From Candidatus Peregrinibacteria bacterium (GTDB lineage: Bacteria > Patescibacteriota > Gracilibacteria > UM-FILTER-43-11), in contig JAFGCT010000035.1 in assembly GCA_016932505.1 (NCBI GenBank), forward strand, positions 62,001 through 126,000: 64,000 bases of DNA, read 5' to 3'. A program made the translations under genes and the position numbers. The notes under the pieces are model-generated. The model ran no database searches, was not told the origin of the DNA, and saw only the letters and a list, made by a program, of their open reading frames with translations. Below, piece by piece: positions 7,018 to 48,418 of this stretch. Every line of letters starts with the position of its first letter. The stretch's first letter is position 1.

Positions 7018-7039
7018 ATTTTTGGAGGGTTAAATTATA

Positions 7040-7090
7040 TTTGTGATTTGAGATTTGTGAATCGAAATTATCAAATCACAAATCACAATT
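7040..7090. repeat. GATTTGTGATTT-type repeat between glyA and the cyclo-ligase gene
   Basis: TTTGTGATTTGAGATTTGTGA at 7040-7060 is followed by the inverted form ATCAAATCACAAATCACAA at 7070-7088. The right half includes the last codons and stop of the cyclo-ligase gene, so the repeat has replaced or become the 3' end of that gene. Confidence 0.65.
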
Positions 7091-30058: not shown

Positions 30059-30760
30059 TTATAAGTTCTTCATAACATCTGTAGCATCAAGAGCAATTCC
30101 AGGCCCCATTGATGATGCAATGGATATTGACTTAACAAATGTACCCTTAATACCTGCTGGTTTTGATTCGCGAATTACCTTTAATACTGTTTTTAGGTTA
30201 TTTTCAAGTTGCTCTTCTTTAAAAGAAAGCTTGCCGAAAATTGTATGGATAATTCCTTCTTTGTCATTTCTGTATTCAACTCTTCCAGCTAGAAGTTCTT
30301 TAATTGTTTTTTCAACGTTATCTGTAACAGTTCCTGATTTAGGATTAGGCATAACACCTTTTTGACCAAGAATCTTAGCTACTTTTCCTAGTTTTTTCAT
30401 AGAATCCGGAGTTGCGACGATTACATCATAGTCAACTTTACCCTTTGTAAATTCTTCTATAAGATCTTCTAATCCCGCGCTAACTGCACCAGCTTCTTTA
30501 GCGGATTTAATTTTGTCGTCAGAAACAATTGCAGCGATTCTTACCTTTTTTCCTGAACCATGTGGAAGAGCTACTGTTCCTCTAATTGCTTGGTCAGCCT
30601 TTTTTGGATCGATATTAAGATTAATGTGTACTTCAGCAGTACCATCAAATTTAGTTGTTCCAGTTTCCTTTAAAAGTTTAACTGCTTCTGTGAGTTCGTA
30701 AAACTCTTTACCTTTGATTTTATCAAGGGCATTACGATAATTTTTACCTTGTTTAGGCAT
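30059..30760 (-). CDS. rplA: Large ribosomal subunit protein uL1
   Basis: Forms the L1 stalk at the E site and represses its own operon in many bacteria. The 233-residue protein shows KFDGTAEVHINLNIDPKKADQ, RGTVALPHGSGKKVRIA, the central TPDSMKKLGKVAKILGQKGVMPNPK and the C-terminal SSMGPGIALD. Normal length. It lies downstream of rplK behind a stable 19-bp hairpin; rplJ and rplL do not follow, dut does. Confidence 0.97.
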   Translation of the reverse strand: MPKQGKNYRNALDKIKGKEFYELTEAVKLLKETGTTKFDGTAEVHINLNIDPKKADQAIRGTVALPHGSGKKVRIAAIVSDDKIKSAKEAGAVSAGLEDLIEEFTKGKVDYDVIVATPDSMKKLGKVAKILGQKGVMPNPKSGTVTDNVEKTIKELLAGRVEYRNDKEGIIHTIFGKLSFKEEQLENNLKTVLKVIRESKPAGIKGTFVKSISIASSMGPGIALDATDVMKNL

Positions 30761-30824: not shown

Positions 30825-30872
30825 ATAACCAATACTAGTACTAGTTATAGTAATAGTACTAGTATTGGTTAT
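30825..30872 (-). promoter_or_regulatory. Perfect 19-bp hairpin between rplK and rplA
   Basis: ATAACCAATACTAGTACTA at 30825-30843 pairs with its exact complement at 30854-30872, with a 10-base loop. The outer edge covers the rplK stop codon. It has no T-run, so it may stabilise or process the mRNA rather than end it. Confidence 0.7.
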
Positions 30873-31291
30873 TCTATTGTTACCCCCATACTCCTTGCAG
30901 TACCTGCAATGATTTTCATTGCCTGATCAACATCATTTGCATTTAAGTCTTCCATCTTCTTTTCTGCAATCTCTTTAAGTTTTGCTTTAGATAGAACACC
31001 TACTTTATCCTTATGAGGTACTCCACTCCCCTTTTTTAGATTTATTGCTTTTTTTATGAGCTCCGCAGCTGGTGCGGTTTTCATAATAAAGGTGAATGAG
31101 CGGTCTTCATATACGGTAATTACTACAGGTACAACGGTATCACCCAATTCCTTGGTTTTATCGTTAAACTGAGAGCAGAAATCCTGAATATTTAAACCAT
31201 GCTGACCAAGAGCAGGACCAACTGGAGGAGCTGGATTTGCCTTTCCGGCAGGAATTTGTAATTTGATAAGCTGAATTACTTTTTTAGCCAC
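30869..31291 (-). CDS. rplK: Large ribosomal subunit protein uL11
   Basis: Binds the GTPase-associated region of 23S rRNA. Clear signatures: [35 protein letters not shown], and the C-terminal [13 protein letters not shown]. Length 140 is normal. Start is GTG at 31289-31291. The preceding gene is an unexpected membrane-protein gene instead of nusG. Confidence 0.97.
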
Positions 31292-31307: not shown

Positions 31308-31904
31308 TTATATTAGTAAGTCTATATCCATCAGTGCATTAATCATGCTTTTGATAGTTGTAAAATTGTTTTCATCGGCCTTGCTATATTGAAAACCGAA
31401 TATATTGTCTTTAATCTGAGAAATCAGATAACCAGTATTTGCGTTGTTAATGTCGTTATAAAAGAAACTATTATACCCATAACCATCTACTTCATTTATT
31501 TCTCCTCCTGAACTCATCTGATCTACTATTTTTAATTTCATGTTCTGATATACAAGGGCTCCCTGATTCTTTTTGCTTTGTATTTCGTATATTGTGATTG
31601 GTGCTTTTCCCTCTAATATATTCGCATATATTACTGCGTTAGCTAGATTACTTAGATCAAACTTCTCAAATAATTGTTTAGTTCTTTCTCGTTTTAAGAT
31701 TTTATAATTGAATTCAGATGGTTTGTAATCCAGAAGCTCCTGAGTAAGATTTGGATAAGGATCTTCAATTTGAGTAACTGCTGGTGCTTCAGTGGAAGAT
31801 GAATCTGCAAGCCTTAACCCATCAGGTGTATTTACGTAGTAATCACCTGCAATGAATAGCGCGATTGCTATAAAAATGATAATGAAAAGCTGAGCTTTCT
31901 TCAT
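31308..31904 (-). CDS. Single-TM exported protein between nusG and rplK
   Basis: Unrecognised 198-residue protein with one N-terminal membrane segment ([22 protein letters not shown]) and an external domain rich in Asn, Ile and Tyr. It begins two bases after nusG and ends 16 bases before rplK, so it is embedded in the transcription/translation operon. Known nusG-rplK operons place these genes next to each other. Function unknown. Confidence 0.75.
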
Positions 31905-31906
31905 AT

Positions 31907-32452
31907 TTACTTCTTTTTTACTTGAGTAAAATCAAGTTCAATTGGAGTTTCTCTATCAAAAATTGAAACAAGTACTTTAACTTTACCTTTTTCAGGGTCG
32001 ATTTTATCAATAATACCATCGTAATTAGCAAATGGACCGCTATTAATTGTTACGTGGTCACCAATACTGAAATCAATTTTATATTTAAGGTCCTCACCTC
32101 CGACTCGCTTCAACATCATTCCGATTTCTTCTGCAGTTACTGGAACTGGAATGTTACCAGAACCAACGAAACCAGTTACATTAGGAGTATTTCTTACTAC
32201 ATACCATGAATCATCAGTTACTATCATCTCTACAAGTACGTATCCAGGGAAAATTCTTTTTTTCTCTTGTACAGGCTCGCCTCTTTTGATTGCAATTTGT
32301 GTTTCTTTGGGAACTTTTACATCAAAGATAAAATCCTGCATATTCATTGCTTCAATTCTCTGTCTAAGAGCTTTTTCTACGGCATCTTCGTATCCTGAGT
32401 ATGTGTGCAGAACGTACCAATTTCGTCCTGTTCCTTTTGCTTGTTTACCCAT
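31907..32452 (-). CDS. nusG: Transcription elongation/antitermination factor NusG
   Basis: Binds RNA polymerase and links it to Rho or ribosomes. The NGN domain begins RNWYVLHTYSGYEDAVEKAL, includes KRIFPGYVLVEM and TPNVTGFVG; the C-terminal KOW domain is FSIGDHVTINSGPFANYDG. Length 181 is standard. It follows secE by nine bases, the classic order. Confidence 0.97.
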   Translation of the reverse strand: MGKQAKGTGRNWYVLHTYSGYEDAVEKALRQRIEAMNMQDFIFDVKVPKETQIAIKRGEPVQEKKRIFPGYVLVEMIVTDDSWYVVRNTPNVTGFVGSGNIPVPVTAEEIGMMLKRVGGEDLKYKIDFSIGDHVTINSGPFANYDGIIDKIDPEKGKVKVLVSIFDRETPIELDFTQVKKK

Positions 32453-32461
32453 AGTTATTAA

Positions 32462-32644
32462 TTATCTAATATTTAGTAATGCCTTGTAACCAACAGCTAG
32501 AAGCTGGTCTACAAAACCAAGAATTGCAGCTGCAACAATCATAAATATAAAAACGATTGTTGTAATGCGTATAGCCTGTTTTTTAGTTGGCCATGTAACA
32601 TTGTGCAGCTCCTGTATGCTTTCACGTATGTATTTTCTAATCAT
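32462..32644 (-). CDS. secE: Preprotein translocase subunit SecE
   Basis: Small essential SecYEG subunit. The 60-residue protein has the conserved amphipathic segment SIQELHNVTWPTKKQAIR followed by one membrane helix (ITTIVFIFMIVAAAILGFV), as in single-TM SecE. It heads the secE-nusG transcript. Upstream (32645-32760) I see no tRNA-Trp or rpmG, which often precede it. Confidence 0.93.
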   Translation of the reverse strand: MIRKYIRESIQELHNVTWPTKKQAIRITTIVFIFMIVAAAILGFVDQLLAVGYKALLNIR

Positions 32645-32784
32645 GATTATAAATGTTATTAATCAGAGTTTATGGCTTATTGCAGATGTTTTATTCACAA
32701 GCACTCCTCTGATTGCCATACCCTTAAAAAGCCGGCACCGAAATCTTATCAAATACTATGAATAAATACAAGCGGAATATTTGA

Positions 32785-32840
32785 AATTTGAGATTTGTGA
32801 TTTGAGATTCAAAAAATTAGAAAATCACAAATCTCAAATT
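32785..32840. repeat. Perfect 19-bp inverted pair of the GATTTGTGATTT repeat family
   Basis: AATTTGAGATTTGTGATTT at 32785-32803 is matched exactly by its reverse complement at 32822-32840, with an 18-base loop; further inverted copies continue to about 32855. It sits between the convergently unrelated end of the LOG-type gene and secE. Confidence 0.75.
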
Positions 32841-32852
32841 ACAAATCTCAAA

Positions 32853-39885: not shown

Positions 39886-40167
39886 ATGGAATGTGAACTT
39901 TCACCAGAAGAGGCGGATAACTTATTAGAATCTATTATTAGTAACTGTCCAGACCGAAAGGAAATGATAGCTAGATTAAGGAGTCTAGTTTTAACACCAG
40001 AACAAGCAATAGCACTTGATGTTGCGGCTTCTACATATGTATCTGGACTTAGGATTGTTAAGAGGCCTAAAGAATTCAGTGAAGCTGAAAATTTAACTAA
40101 ACTTATTGGTCAGCTCAGACCATTAATTACTGAAAGGTTCAAAGAGATACTAATGCCTAATCTATAA
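39886..40167 (+). CDS. Uncharacterised 93-residue protein
   Basis: Soluble helical protein (ECELSPEEADNLLESIISNC, LTPEQAIALDVAASTYVSGL). Not recognised. Its last 11 bases overlap the 3' end of the convergent double-ddl gene. It probably shares the transcript of the 39378 gene. Confidence 0.6.
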   Translation: MECELSPEEADNLLESIISNCPDRKEMIARLRSLVLTPEQAIALDVAASTYVSGLRIVKRPKEFSEAENLTKLIGQLRPLITERFKEILMPNL

Positions 40168-42589
40168 TTTTCTCCAAAAACTCCGTCGGATACATCGGCG
40201 GTTTTTCTTCGAGTGCCTGATGGTAAATTACAGTAGAAGGAGTTAGACCTGGGGTAGTATTGGCTTCTATTATTATAAGCTCCCCTGTTTTAATATGCAT
40301 AAAAGCATCAATTCTGCAGTAACCGGAAAGACCCAAAGCATTTGCAACCTTTTCCATTCTTTCCTGTGCCTTTTTAACAGCGGAAGGTTTTACATAAGGT
40401 GAAGGTGGTGGTGTTATGTTTACCCCTGTTCCCCCTTGGAACTTTTCTTCAAGACTTAATATATTTCCGACAGCAACTGTAATACTCGGCGACATAGCTT
40501 TCATCTTCCCATTTTTTTCAATAAGCCCCATTGTAATTTCAATCCAATTATTTTTTGTCTGCCATTTAAGCTTGTTTTTTATAACACGCACTTTGTCTGT
40601 TGAAATAAACTGCTCAAACATAATATTTTTCATCTTTATGTGGGGCATATCAATTATTCCATGTTGTTTTGTAAGTGCCCCTTCTGGAATCATAGGCGAT
40701 GCATTCAGGGCATATCTCATATACTGTTCAAGGTCTTTAGGGGTATAAAGACGTGCTATTCCCGAGCTACATCCATCATCTACTGGTTTTACAATTATTG
40801 TCCTGCTAGATAAATCACGGACTAATTCTTTCCAATATCTTTTGTAGTCGACTGGTTTGAATTCTTTAAACAAATTAATTTTTTCAAGTTTTTTTAAAGC
40901 AGAATATACTCCGTCTTTTTTTAACGACTTTATCGCTTCGGCAGTTTTATATTTATCCATTCCTAGTCTAGAAGCTTTTGAGCCCGAACCATTGAAAGGT
41001 ACTTTTGCCTCTTCTAACATCTTTTGTAATGTGCCATCTTCTCCAATTCCACCATGCAAACCTATAAATACAAATTTTGATTTTTTGATAAATTCTTTCA
41101 GTGTCATTTTTTGCGGAAAAAACCACGGCTCAGTTAAATCCCCTTCTTCTACCGCAAGCTTATCCACCACCCTGCTAATTAGCTCATGAAGCCTTTTCTC
41201 ATCATTTTTAGCGTTCATACATGTCTCCATCATTTCTTCAACCGTATGATTAAGCGTAAGAGCATAAGGGAGATGCCATACGTTATGATTTGTATCGAGT
41301 AAATATGGTTCAGGGCAGTATTTATTTGAACGTTTTAATTTTAGCCATACATTTGTGCCAGACATTACAGAAACCTGACGTTCTGCGGTTTTGCCACCGA
41401 AGAGAACATTGATTTGTGATTTGTGATTTTTGATTTGTGATTTTTGATTTGTGATTTGTGATTTGTGATTTGTGATTTGTGATTTTGAATCCTTAATTCT
41501 CAAATCACAATTCTCAAATTCTATGTTATATCGTCGACAAGCACTTTTGATTATGTATTTTAAAACATCTCGGTGACTCATACCAATGCGTGATGACTGC
41601 ATAAATAAGAAACTGTTTTGCTCCATTCCGCTTATCGGATTAAAATCCGAAAACCACAATTTCCCGTCTGGCATCAGCCATCCATCAAAACGGGCAAAAT
41701 CCTTCATTCCAAGAAGCTTAAAAAGTTGTTCTGCCTGTATCTGAATATCTTGAATTACCTCGTTACTGAATCTTGGCGGACAATGATAAGTTACCTGACG
41801 ACTTGCCAGGTATTTTTTTCTGTAATCGAAAATCTGATGGTCTTTGTAACTTATTTCTATTTCAGACGGCATAACAGCTACTGGCATACCAAAACGGTTC
41901 TGCAAAATGATGACTGTAAATTCAGTACCTTGGCAGAATGGCTCAATTACAACTCTTGTATCCACACGCTTAGAAAATATTTCCTGAGCTTTTTTAAGTG
42001 CTTCTTCTGGTGTTGAAATTGAATACACAGCAATACTGGAACCACCTGTAGCCGGTTTTACAATTGCGCGTTTTATTTTATTTTCCCTAAAGAACTTATC
42101 AATTATTTTTTTATGATCATTTAAATGACTCTTTAGTAATGCGGACGGAAGAGTATAGAAACCATTCTTCTTTATAAACTCATTTGCATTATATTTATCA
42201 AATGCCTGCTTACATGCTTCCTCTGGTGAACCAACAGTTGGAATATTTAATTTCTTCAACATTCTTTGAATTTCGCCATCTTCTCCAAAAGGCCCGTGCA
42301 TTACAGGAAAGGCTAGATCAACTGTTTTTAGAAATTTAGCGAATCCACTTTTAGAAAGCGGTTTACCAGAGGTATTTAACTTGAAATCAAAATCAGACGG
42401 TGTATTGGAATAAAGTTGGCTACGTGATATCTGATATGCATTTTTTTTATGGTCAAAATAAATCGGTAGTACCTCAATACTTTCGGAATGTAAATGGTCG
42501 CATACAGACCGTGCGGAATTTAGAGATATCCCCCTTTCAAGTGATGGACCACCGCATAATAAAGCAATTTTTATTCTATTTTTTGACAT
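40157..42589 (-). CDS. ddl: Fused tandem D-alanine-D-alanine ligase
   Basis: Two complete Ddl (ATP-grasp) units in one 810-residue chain. Unit 1 (about 1-355): CGGPSLERGISLNSA, MHGPFGEDGEIQRML, AIVKPATGGSSIAVY and FARFDGWLMPDGK then FNPISGM. Unit 2 (about 394-810): FGGKTAERQVSVMSG, GLHGGIGEDGTLQKML, IVKPVDDGCSSGIARL and CRIDAFMHIKTG then EANTTPGLTPS. Ddl joins two D-Ala for peptidoglycan precursors. Unit 1 has DFNPISGM where the metal-binding consensus is EANTSPGM, so an essential Glu is replaced by Asp; unit 2 keeps it but carries a longer insertion before the C-terminal core. The units may differ in activity or substrate. Residues 357-393 are a repeat-encoded linker. Confidence 0.92.
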   Translation of the reverse strand: MSKNRIKIALLCGGPSLERGISLNSARSVCDHLHSESIEVLPIYFDHKKNAYQISRSQLYSNTPSDFDFKLNTSGKPLSKSGFAKFLKTVDLAFPVMHGPFGEDGEIQRMLKKLNIPTVGSPEEACKQAFDKYNANEFIKKNGFYTLPSALLKSHLNDHKKIIDKFFRENKIKRAIVKPATGGSSIAVYSISTPEEALKKAQEIFSKRVDTRVVIEPFCQGTEFTVIILQNRFGMPVAVMPSEIEISYKDHQIFDYRKKYLASRQVTYHCPPRFSNEVIQDIQIQAEQLFKLLGMKDFARFDGWLMPDGKLWFSDFNPISGMEQNSFLFMQSSRIGMSHRDVLKYIIKSACRRYNIEFENCDLRIKDSKSQITNHKSQITNQKSQIKNHKSQINVLFGGKTAERQVSVMSGTNVWLKLKRSNKYCPEPYLLDTNHNVWHLPYALTLNHTVEEMMETCMNAKNDEKRLHELISRVVDKLAVEEGDLTEPWFFPQKMTLKEFIKKSKFVFIGLHGGIGEDGTLQKMLEEAKVPFNGSGSKASRLGMDKYKTAEAIKSLKKDGVYSALKKLEKINLFKEFKPVDYKRYWKELVRDLSSRTIIVKPVDDGCSSGIARLYTPKDLEQYMRYALNASPMIPEGALTKQHGIIDMPHIKMKNIMFEQFISTDKVRVIKNKLKWQTKNNWIEITMGLIEKNGKMKAMSPSITVAVGNILSLEEKFQGGTGVNITPPPSPYVKPSAVKKAQERMEKVANALGLSGYCRIDAFMHIKTGELIIIEANTTPGLTPSTVIYHQALEEKPPMYPTEFLEKIID
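41411..41521. repeat. GATTTGTGATTT repeat inside the double-ddl coding sequence
   Basis: The DNA is a run of GATTTGTGATTT variants (41411-41487), then the inverted form CTCAAATCACAATTCTCAAAT (41500-41520). It encodes the protein repeat SQITNHK/SQITNQK/SQIKNHK between the two Ddl units, in frame. The same repeat type is otherwise seen between genes. Confidence 0.9.
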
Positions 42590-44661: not shown

Positions 44662-44745
44662 TTTCAATTTGTGATTTAAAATTTGTGATTTGGAATTTTA
44701 CCTTTTCATAGTATAATAATTAGGATAATTGATTAATATGCCCTT

Positions 44746-48355: not shown

Positions 48356-48418
48356 TTTAATTTGTGATTTGCGATTTATGATTTGTGATTTAATTAGAAA
48401 TTCTCAAATCTCAAATAA
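48356..48418. repeat. GATTTGCGATTTATGATTTGTGATTT repeat between recR and smpB
   Basis: Three to four imperfect 9-base units, followed by inverted ATTCTCAAATCTCAAAT at 48400-48416. Same architecture as the other spacers. Confidence 0.65.

Follow-up and report, generated by a model that had tools for sequence, protein, structure and literature searches.

Introduction

The secE-nusG-rplK-rplA cluster is one of the most conserved in bacteria. In the locus described here, identical genes in identical order surround an additional gene, which we call gene X: the order secE-nusG-X-rplK-rplA is that of the usual operon with a membrane-protein gene added between nusG and rplK, and the addition is retained class-wide. 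The domain predicted for its product also has described counterparts. PsbP, CyanoP and Mog1 resemble it in fold, as do LpqN, DcrB, TiME, the C-terminal domain of RseB and the ectodomain of PknH; CyanoP is a lipoprotein of photosynthetic membranes, LpqN and DcrB are lipid-anchored, and LpqN, DcrB, RseB, PknH and TiME have anchors, partners and operons different from those of X. The best structural match by Z score to both of our models is Thermotoga maritima TM1622 (PDB 1vr8), deposited as a “GTP binding regulator”. We are highly confident of the gene X family, its site and its topology taken together, and discuss the role of the protein as a set of graded alternatives.

Throughout the text “the window” means the whole stretch of 64,000 nucleotides that was analysed. 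We use “class” for the grouping employed in the genome search, i.e., the Peregrinibacteria and relatives, a large class of ultra-small bacteria whose name we take from GTDB usage to be Gracilibacteria, and we refer to family-level groups within it by number (e.g., f8, f14).

Position of gene X in the window

Gene X occupies 31308..31904 on the minus strand, opens with an ATG and encodes a bitopic membrane protein of 198 aa with a predicted C-terminal PsbP/Mog1-like domain. Its upstream partner is nusG (31907..32452; Pfam NusG 7e-27), with secE lying 5' of nusG (32462..32644; Pfam SecE 2e-17); rplK, encoding L11, follows on the 3' side of gene X (30869..31291; Pfam L11 3e-29), and rplA, encoding L1, lies downstream (30059..30760; Pfam L1 1e-60), all on the minus strand. 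The nusG stop codon has its last base at 31907, and gene X begins at 31904 after a gap of 2 nt; at the other end, 16 nt separate the stop of gene X (31308) from the GTG start of rplK (31291). A first-pass annotation of this DNA had placed a membrane-protein gene between nusG and rplK with spacings of 2 and 16; both values are exact, Pfam confirms the neighbours, and a single N-terminal transmembrane helix is predicted. Gene X shares one strand with secE, nusG, rplK and rplA and is set off from its neighbours by short gaps; a sequence scan of the minus strand across the nusG-rplK interval found no terminator-like site, and the same scan returned 15 promoter-like sites against 15.1 expected by chance. 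The genome to which the window belongs (1.35 Mb, 91% complete) carries gene X as a single copy, with one match at E 1.

The rplK-rplA spacer contains a long inverted repeat, possibly a regulatory hairpin (30827-30870); Rfam gave only sub-threshold matches near the operon, this repeat included. A 7-base unit, AAATCACAAATC, has 26 matches in the window (allowing up to one mismatch) against 1.4 expected. It forms an inverted pair upstream of secE (32780-32850) and recurs at 7038-7084, 44666-44691 and 48359-48391, and a tandem run of it lies at 41411-41485, inside a minus-strand ORF (40157-42589), where its in-frame translation links two fused D-Ala-D-Ala-ligase-like halves.

Predicted structure and topology

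The AlphaFold2 model of the window protein (12 sequences; mean pLDDT 87) comprises a transmembrane helix at residues 2-25 (31830..31901), a disordered linker at residues 26-51 (31752..31829), where pLDDT falls under 50 at 29-45, and a domain at residues 52-193 (31326..31751) which this model and its structural matches describe as PsbP/Mog1-like. From residue 53 to 193 the predicted elements run helix, three strands, helix, four strands, helix. The most conserved stretch in the alignment of 33 members, INExxxxGxxSFFxND in the frame of the window protein, covers residues 136-151 (31452..31499): N150 is invariant (33/33), and N137, E138, G143 and S146 are conserved at 90% or more. The MKK start, read by the positive-inside rule, points to an N-in, C-out topology, and the domain would probably lie outside the membrane.

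A second model, of a distant member from f18, has a mean pLDDT of 75, with domain blocks at 83 or more, and a linker of about 95 residues without secondary structure at 28-122; its element order is that of the window protein, at 19% identity between the two. The best solved match to the window model is 1vr8 (Foldseek E 9.6e-4; Z 11.6; rmsd 3.3 over 120 residues), the rows after it reaching Z 7.9 or less. Against the f18 model 1vr8 is again first by Z (10.1; rmsd 3.1 over 117), followed by TiME and PknH at 9.1; in Foldseek it is fourth by E (0.03), and nothing passes 0.001. Both predicted models superpose on CyanoP (Z 7.5 and 7.0), PsbP reaches about 6 and Mog1 6.8 (f18 model), although most of these fold matches have Z values that common arrangements also reach, and unrelated proteins are among the rows. 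The putative external domain, whose structure the first-pass annotation had proposed to predict, has a confident model, and we describe its fold as PsbP/Mog1-like. A shared fold in itself shows no function.

Sequence searches assigned the protein to no described family. Pfam gave no family for the window protein and none for the 33 members, among which five families each hit a single member, at E 0.0018 or weaker, which we regard as chance; the PsbP and Mog1 profiles matched 0 of 33 members at E 0.1. NCBIfam, searched with the window protein only, gave one match at 15.7 bits against a cut-off of 498 and hence no family, and PDB by sequence likewise gave none, the best match being Abraxas 2 at E 0.044, taken as chance. 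The literature searched, which was covered at the level of abstract openings and with most subscription journals outside it, yielded no description of gene X.

Distribution across the class

A direct scan of genome contigs with X returned no match, and loci were therefore collected via nusG. Six named loci, three of them from Candidatus Peregrinibacteria, have a NusG 83-90% identical to that of the window. Searching with the single X sequence recovered 33 of 98 related genomes at E 0.01, including 16 of the 18 from its own family; in the two own-family misses (G012 and G013, 88 and 81% complete) nusG was not found either. A profile of 33 members (A1; L004 and L015 left out; model of 200 positions) matched 152 of 353 class genomes at E 0.001, and in direct search its matches fell below E 1e-10 in 22 family-level groups, in f22 through a single genome. 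In f14 and f22, in-frame TGA codons in both nusG and X suggest recoding of UGA to Gly; with TGA so read, an ORF of 219-249 aa stands directly behind nusG (seven sequences, alignment A4). By hhalign, A4 matched A1 at 98.2% (E 2.8e-14), and f6 matched at 93.5% (E 2.2e-7) in profile-profile comparison, each E being that of one comparison. As judged from sequence, the gene X family spans 22 family-level groups by direct search, plus f6 and f14 by profile-profile comparison.

Outside the class, a phylum-wide sample of 379 genomes contained no relative of the conserved C-terminal half of X, although such a profile search is weak in recoded families, so that an equally diverged relative elsewhere could escape it. 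Matches at E 0.001 did occur in 24 genomes outside the class, confined to positions 1-132 of the 200-position model; all of these end at or before position 132 and miss the C-terminal half, and a phylum-wide family was thus not seen in this sample. No match to X occurred either in 50 further nusG loci, mostly of other Patescibacteria (L060-L110 without L089). In two of these, from Doudnabacteria (L069 and L071), the ORF behind nusG looks by eye like an SPFH/slipin protein, so that the site takes membrane genes elsewhere too. The clade-specific insertion proposed in the first-pass annotation is supported, with an extent that is the whole class rather than a small clade.

The NusG tree (113 rows; a quick tree with long branches flagged) places the class on one side of a starred branch, with f9 and f13 near the base and f14, f22 and f10 in one group, and no fewer than 6 changes are required on it to account for which lineages have X at the site. 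Early acquisition followed by later losses is the simplest reading of the tree, though not a proven one.

Retention of X behind nusG

Gene X loci were read in 125 genomes, 95 found by searching X first and 30 by nusG first; for the former, adjacency to nusG was not built into the search. In 121 of the 125, X is preceded by a nusG on its own strand, and the remaining four comprise three contig edges (G144, G268 and G305) and one genome with nusG on the opposite strand (G283). The gap between the HMM ends of nusG and X has a median of 30 nt and is 100 nt or less in 100 of the 121; the longest are 576, 587 and 974 nt. secE lies upstream of nusG in 118 of 122 genomes, and in the other four no more than 106 nt of contig remains; G268, with pieces of X at two contig ends, counts as lacking nusG among the 125, and the secE count takes its other contig end.

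Downstream the association is looser. rplK follows X in 91 of 99 genomes outside f14 and f22, and three of the eight misses are short contigs; in f14 and f22 it was not found within the DNA examined in any of 26 genomes, 17 found through nusG and nine through X. There X stands behind nusG in 25 of the 26, the exception being a contig edge, and greA then follows X in 25, the miss falling at a contig end (Pfam check on two). In these loci (L157-L164, L185-L193, L253-L262), with the order nusG, X, greA, a PAP2-like ORF comes next in several, by eye. Since X keeps nusG where rplK is not adjacent, nusG, and not rplK, is its most faithful neighbour. The survey of nusG-rplK spacing proposed at the outset accordingly upheld the place of X behind nusG and lost rplK as a neighbour in f14 and f22. 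X can be recognised by its place where sequence search is weak, and its history and function are testable on that account.

Exceptions within the class

The genome set also contains lineages without X at the site: no X stands behind nusG in the nusG-first loci of f5 (5/5), f7 (5/5), f8 (5/5), f9 (1/1), f13 (2/2) or genus g48 of f15 (1/1), and no match was found anywhere in G304 (f18, 98% complete). X is not essential for the class, given its absence from the site in f5, f7, f9, f13 and g48 and from G304. In the f5 loci (L145, L148, L173-L175) and in L040, L043, L044, L046-L049, L052, L053, L055 and L056, which by title are Peribacteria, Peribacteraceae or Peregrinibacteria, other genes follow nusG, often a short acylphosphatase-like ORF (by eye); rplK was not found within the DNA examined in either set.

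Family f8 keeps X elsewhere. Its homologue, which scores 97.1% in hhalign with E 7.5e-11 across 174 columns, sits upstream of a UvrC-like ORF (by eye) in 5/5 genomes read; weak matches (L320, L321, L324, L326 and L327) were left out. Three of the five copies have a cysteine resembling a lipobox, and in these the helix seems to have been replaced by a lipid anchor; neither the site nor the helix is then indispensable. The first-pass annotation had stated that finding this gene at unrelated places in sister genomes would make the site accidental; such a shift is restricted to these five f8 copies, and elsewhere the site is kept.

Two further families have an ORF of like design at the site, which we left out of all counts of X. 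In f10, 27 of 30 loci have an ORF of 225-289 aa behind nusG, hydrophobic by eye in a segment near its N terminus, and the remaining three end at contig edges; in the one f3 genome a 243-aa ORF lies between nusG and rplK. hhalign did not join them to X: the f10 ORF scored 0.7% with A1 and 27.6% (E 6.5e-4) with A6, and the f3 ORF 10.3%.

Selection and descent

Gene X is under purifying selection: five pairs give pN/pS of 0.17-0.24, and the two pairs with computable dS, which is high (1.3-1.4), give dN/dS of 0.08 and 0.10. Homologues at 41% mean identity, these ratios and a confident fold together mark it as a real gene rather than a chance ORF. It is nevertheless a fast-changing one: within the family of the window (13 genomes) X averages 41% identity, against 87% for NusG and 81% for L11, and across the class it diverges to about 20%. 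X and NusG distances correlate with r 0.72 over 113 genomes, the best of 1000 permutations reaching 0.13, and with r 0.76 over the 92 genomes that remain without the recoded ones; X has been inherited vertically across the class.

Among 14 X sequences of the window's family, identity is 46% in the transmembrane helix and 42% in the domain; the linker stands at 13%. The controls in the same family, which are few, namely two single-pass envelope enzymes only, differ: PBP2 (12 sequences, fragments L358-L361 left out) has 51% in the helix and 67% in the rest, and MltG (13 sequences, fragments L339 and L342-L345 left out) 32% and 59%. Because its helix is conserved like the domain, unlike those of PBP2 and MltG, the helix of X may be more than an anchor.

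Possible roles of X

That X stands near-constantly behind nusG suggests a basic, undescribed job in the cell envelope, and the growth-linked envelope role put forward in the first-pass annotation fits the operon, the topology and the fold. We favour a putative envelope or export adaptor tied to growth, a reading that we find plausible while stopping short of calling it probable. X would be co-transcribed with its neighbours and made at a rate tied to the synthesis of SecE and ribosomes, and its most likely job would be that of a housekeeping adaptor or an assembly factor, carried out on the outer side of the cytoplasmic membrane. Its domain would bind a client or partner, with the conserved Asn and Glu residues as first candidates, and its helix would contact a partner in the membrane. 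The leading candidate for that partner is the Sec export route, since SecE is encoded two genes upstream in 118 of the 122 genomes counted; an association with Sec in particular is nevertheless unlikely in our estimation. A sharper proposal makes X an accessory Sec translocon subunit peculiar to this lineage, with a helix that packs on SecYEG and a domain that catches emerging proteins outside; we consider it slightly less likely still. On this proposal the class would have gained the gene early, ahead of the divergence of its lineages with in-frame UGA, and would have retained it in the SecE operon as the sequence diverged to the present level, and the ORFs of f10 and f3 would represent this gene, too far diverged for sequence methods to recognise.

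A substantial minority chance goes to X being an envelope protein of the cell wall, surface or pili whose function is unrelated to Sec or ribosomes and which is kept behind nusG only for strong, growth-coupled expression or translational coupling. The site takes other genes in some other lineages, the nusG-rplK gap exceeding 330 nt in nine of the 50 further loci (one of them, L110, an artefact in which the L11 ORF starts at +23) and holding an ORF of 251-252 aa in the two Doudnabacteria loci; f8 carries X elsewhere, and X holds to nusG where rplK is not adjacent. Near-constant class-wide retention at such low family identity nevertheless exceeds what would be expected of a casual passenger. 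The matches to RseB and the PknH ectodomain (Z 7.6 and 7.9 with the window model, 7.6 and 9.1 with the f18 model) could instead be taken to mean that X is an envelope sensor, its domain binding a ligand or misfolded protein as these do and signalling via a partner encoded elsewhere. We think this quite improbable: those Z values lie mostly in the range of common arrangements, the predicted cytoplasmic part consists of the first residues only, X has no attached kinase or anti-sigma domain, and the operon neighbours are constitutive genes.

The cytoplasmic part bears equally on the idea that X links transcription to the membrane by anchoring complexes of NusG or GreA there. X stays with nusG, and in f14 and f22 lies between nusG and greA, but a predicted cytoplasmic part of a few residues is too short to bind NusG, which leaves the idea very remote. 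The genomes are mostly many-contig drafts, which might invite the view that X is a chance ORF or a product of misassembly; selection on the protein and the recurrence of the arrangement in 121 of 125 genomes refute this, and we give it virtually no weight. Retained by a whole class inside so conserved a cluster, at about 20% identity and in lineages with and without in-frame UGA, X is a promising candidate for a core role in the envelope or in export that is peculiar to the barely cultured bacteria of the candidate phyla radiation.

Comparison with known systems

SecDF offers a known export component for comparison, and X as a SecDF substitute was considered and rejected, since 97 of 98 genomes encode SecD_SecF_C whether or not they have X. 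The sensors RseB and PknH differ from X in that no kinase or anti-sigma domain is attached to X or found among its immediate neighbours. The lipid anchor of LpqN and DcrB resembles the putative one of some f8 copies of X; the window protein itself has no N-terminal Cys of the lipobox type seen in LpqN, DcrB and CyanoP, and three of five f8 relatives have one.

In fold, the X domain is similar to LpqN, DcrB, the RseB C-terminal domain, the PknH ectodomain and TiME at Z 5.5-9.1, a likeness so far confined to fold. PsbP and Mog1 share the predicted fold without a sequence-family match in the search of the members described above, and TM1622, the closest structure, is 8-9% identical to X in sequence and went unmatched in the PDB sequence search. 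The fold of X is known; its family, and its fixed place within an operon that otherwise has the usual genes and order, are new as far as searched.
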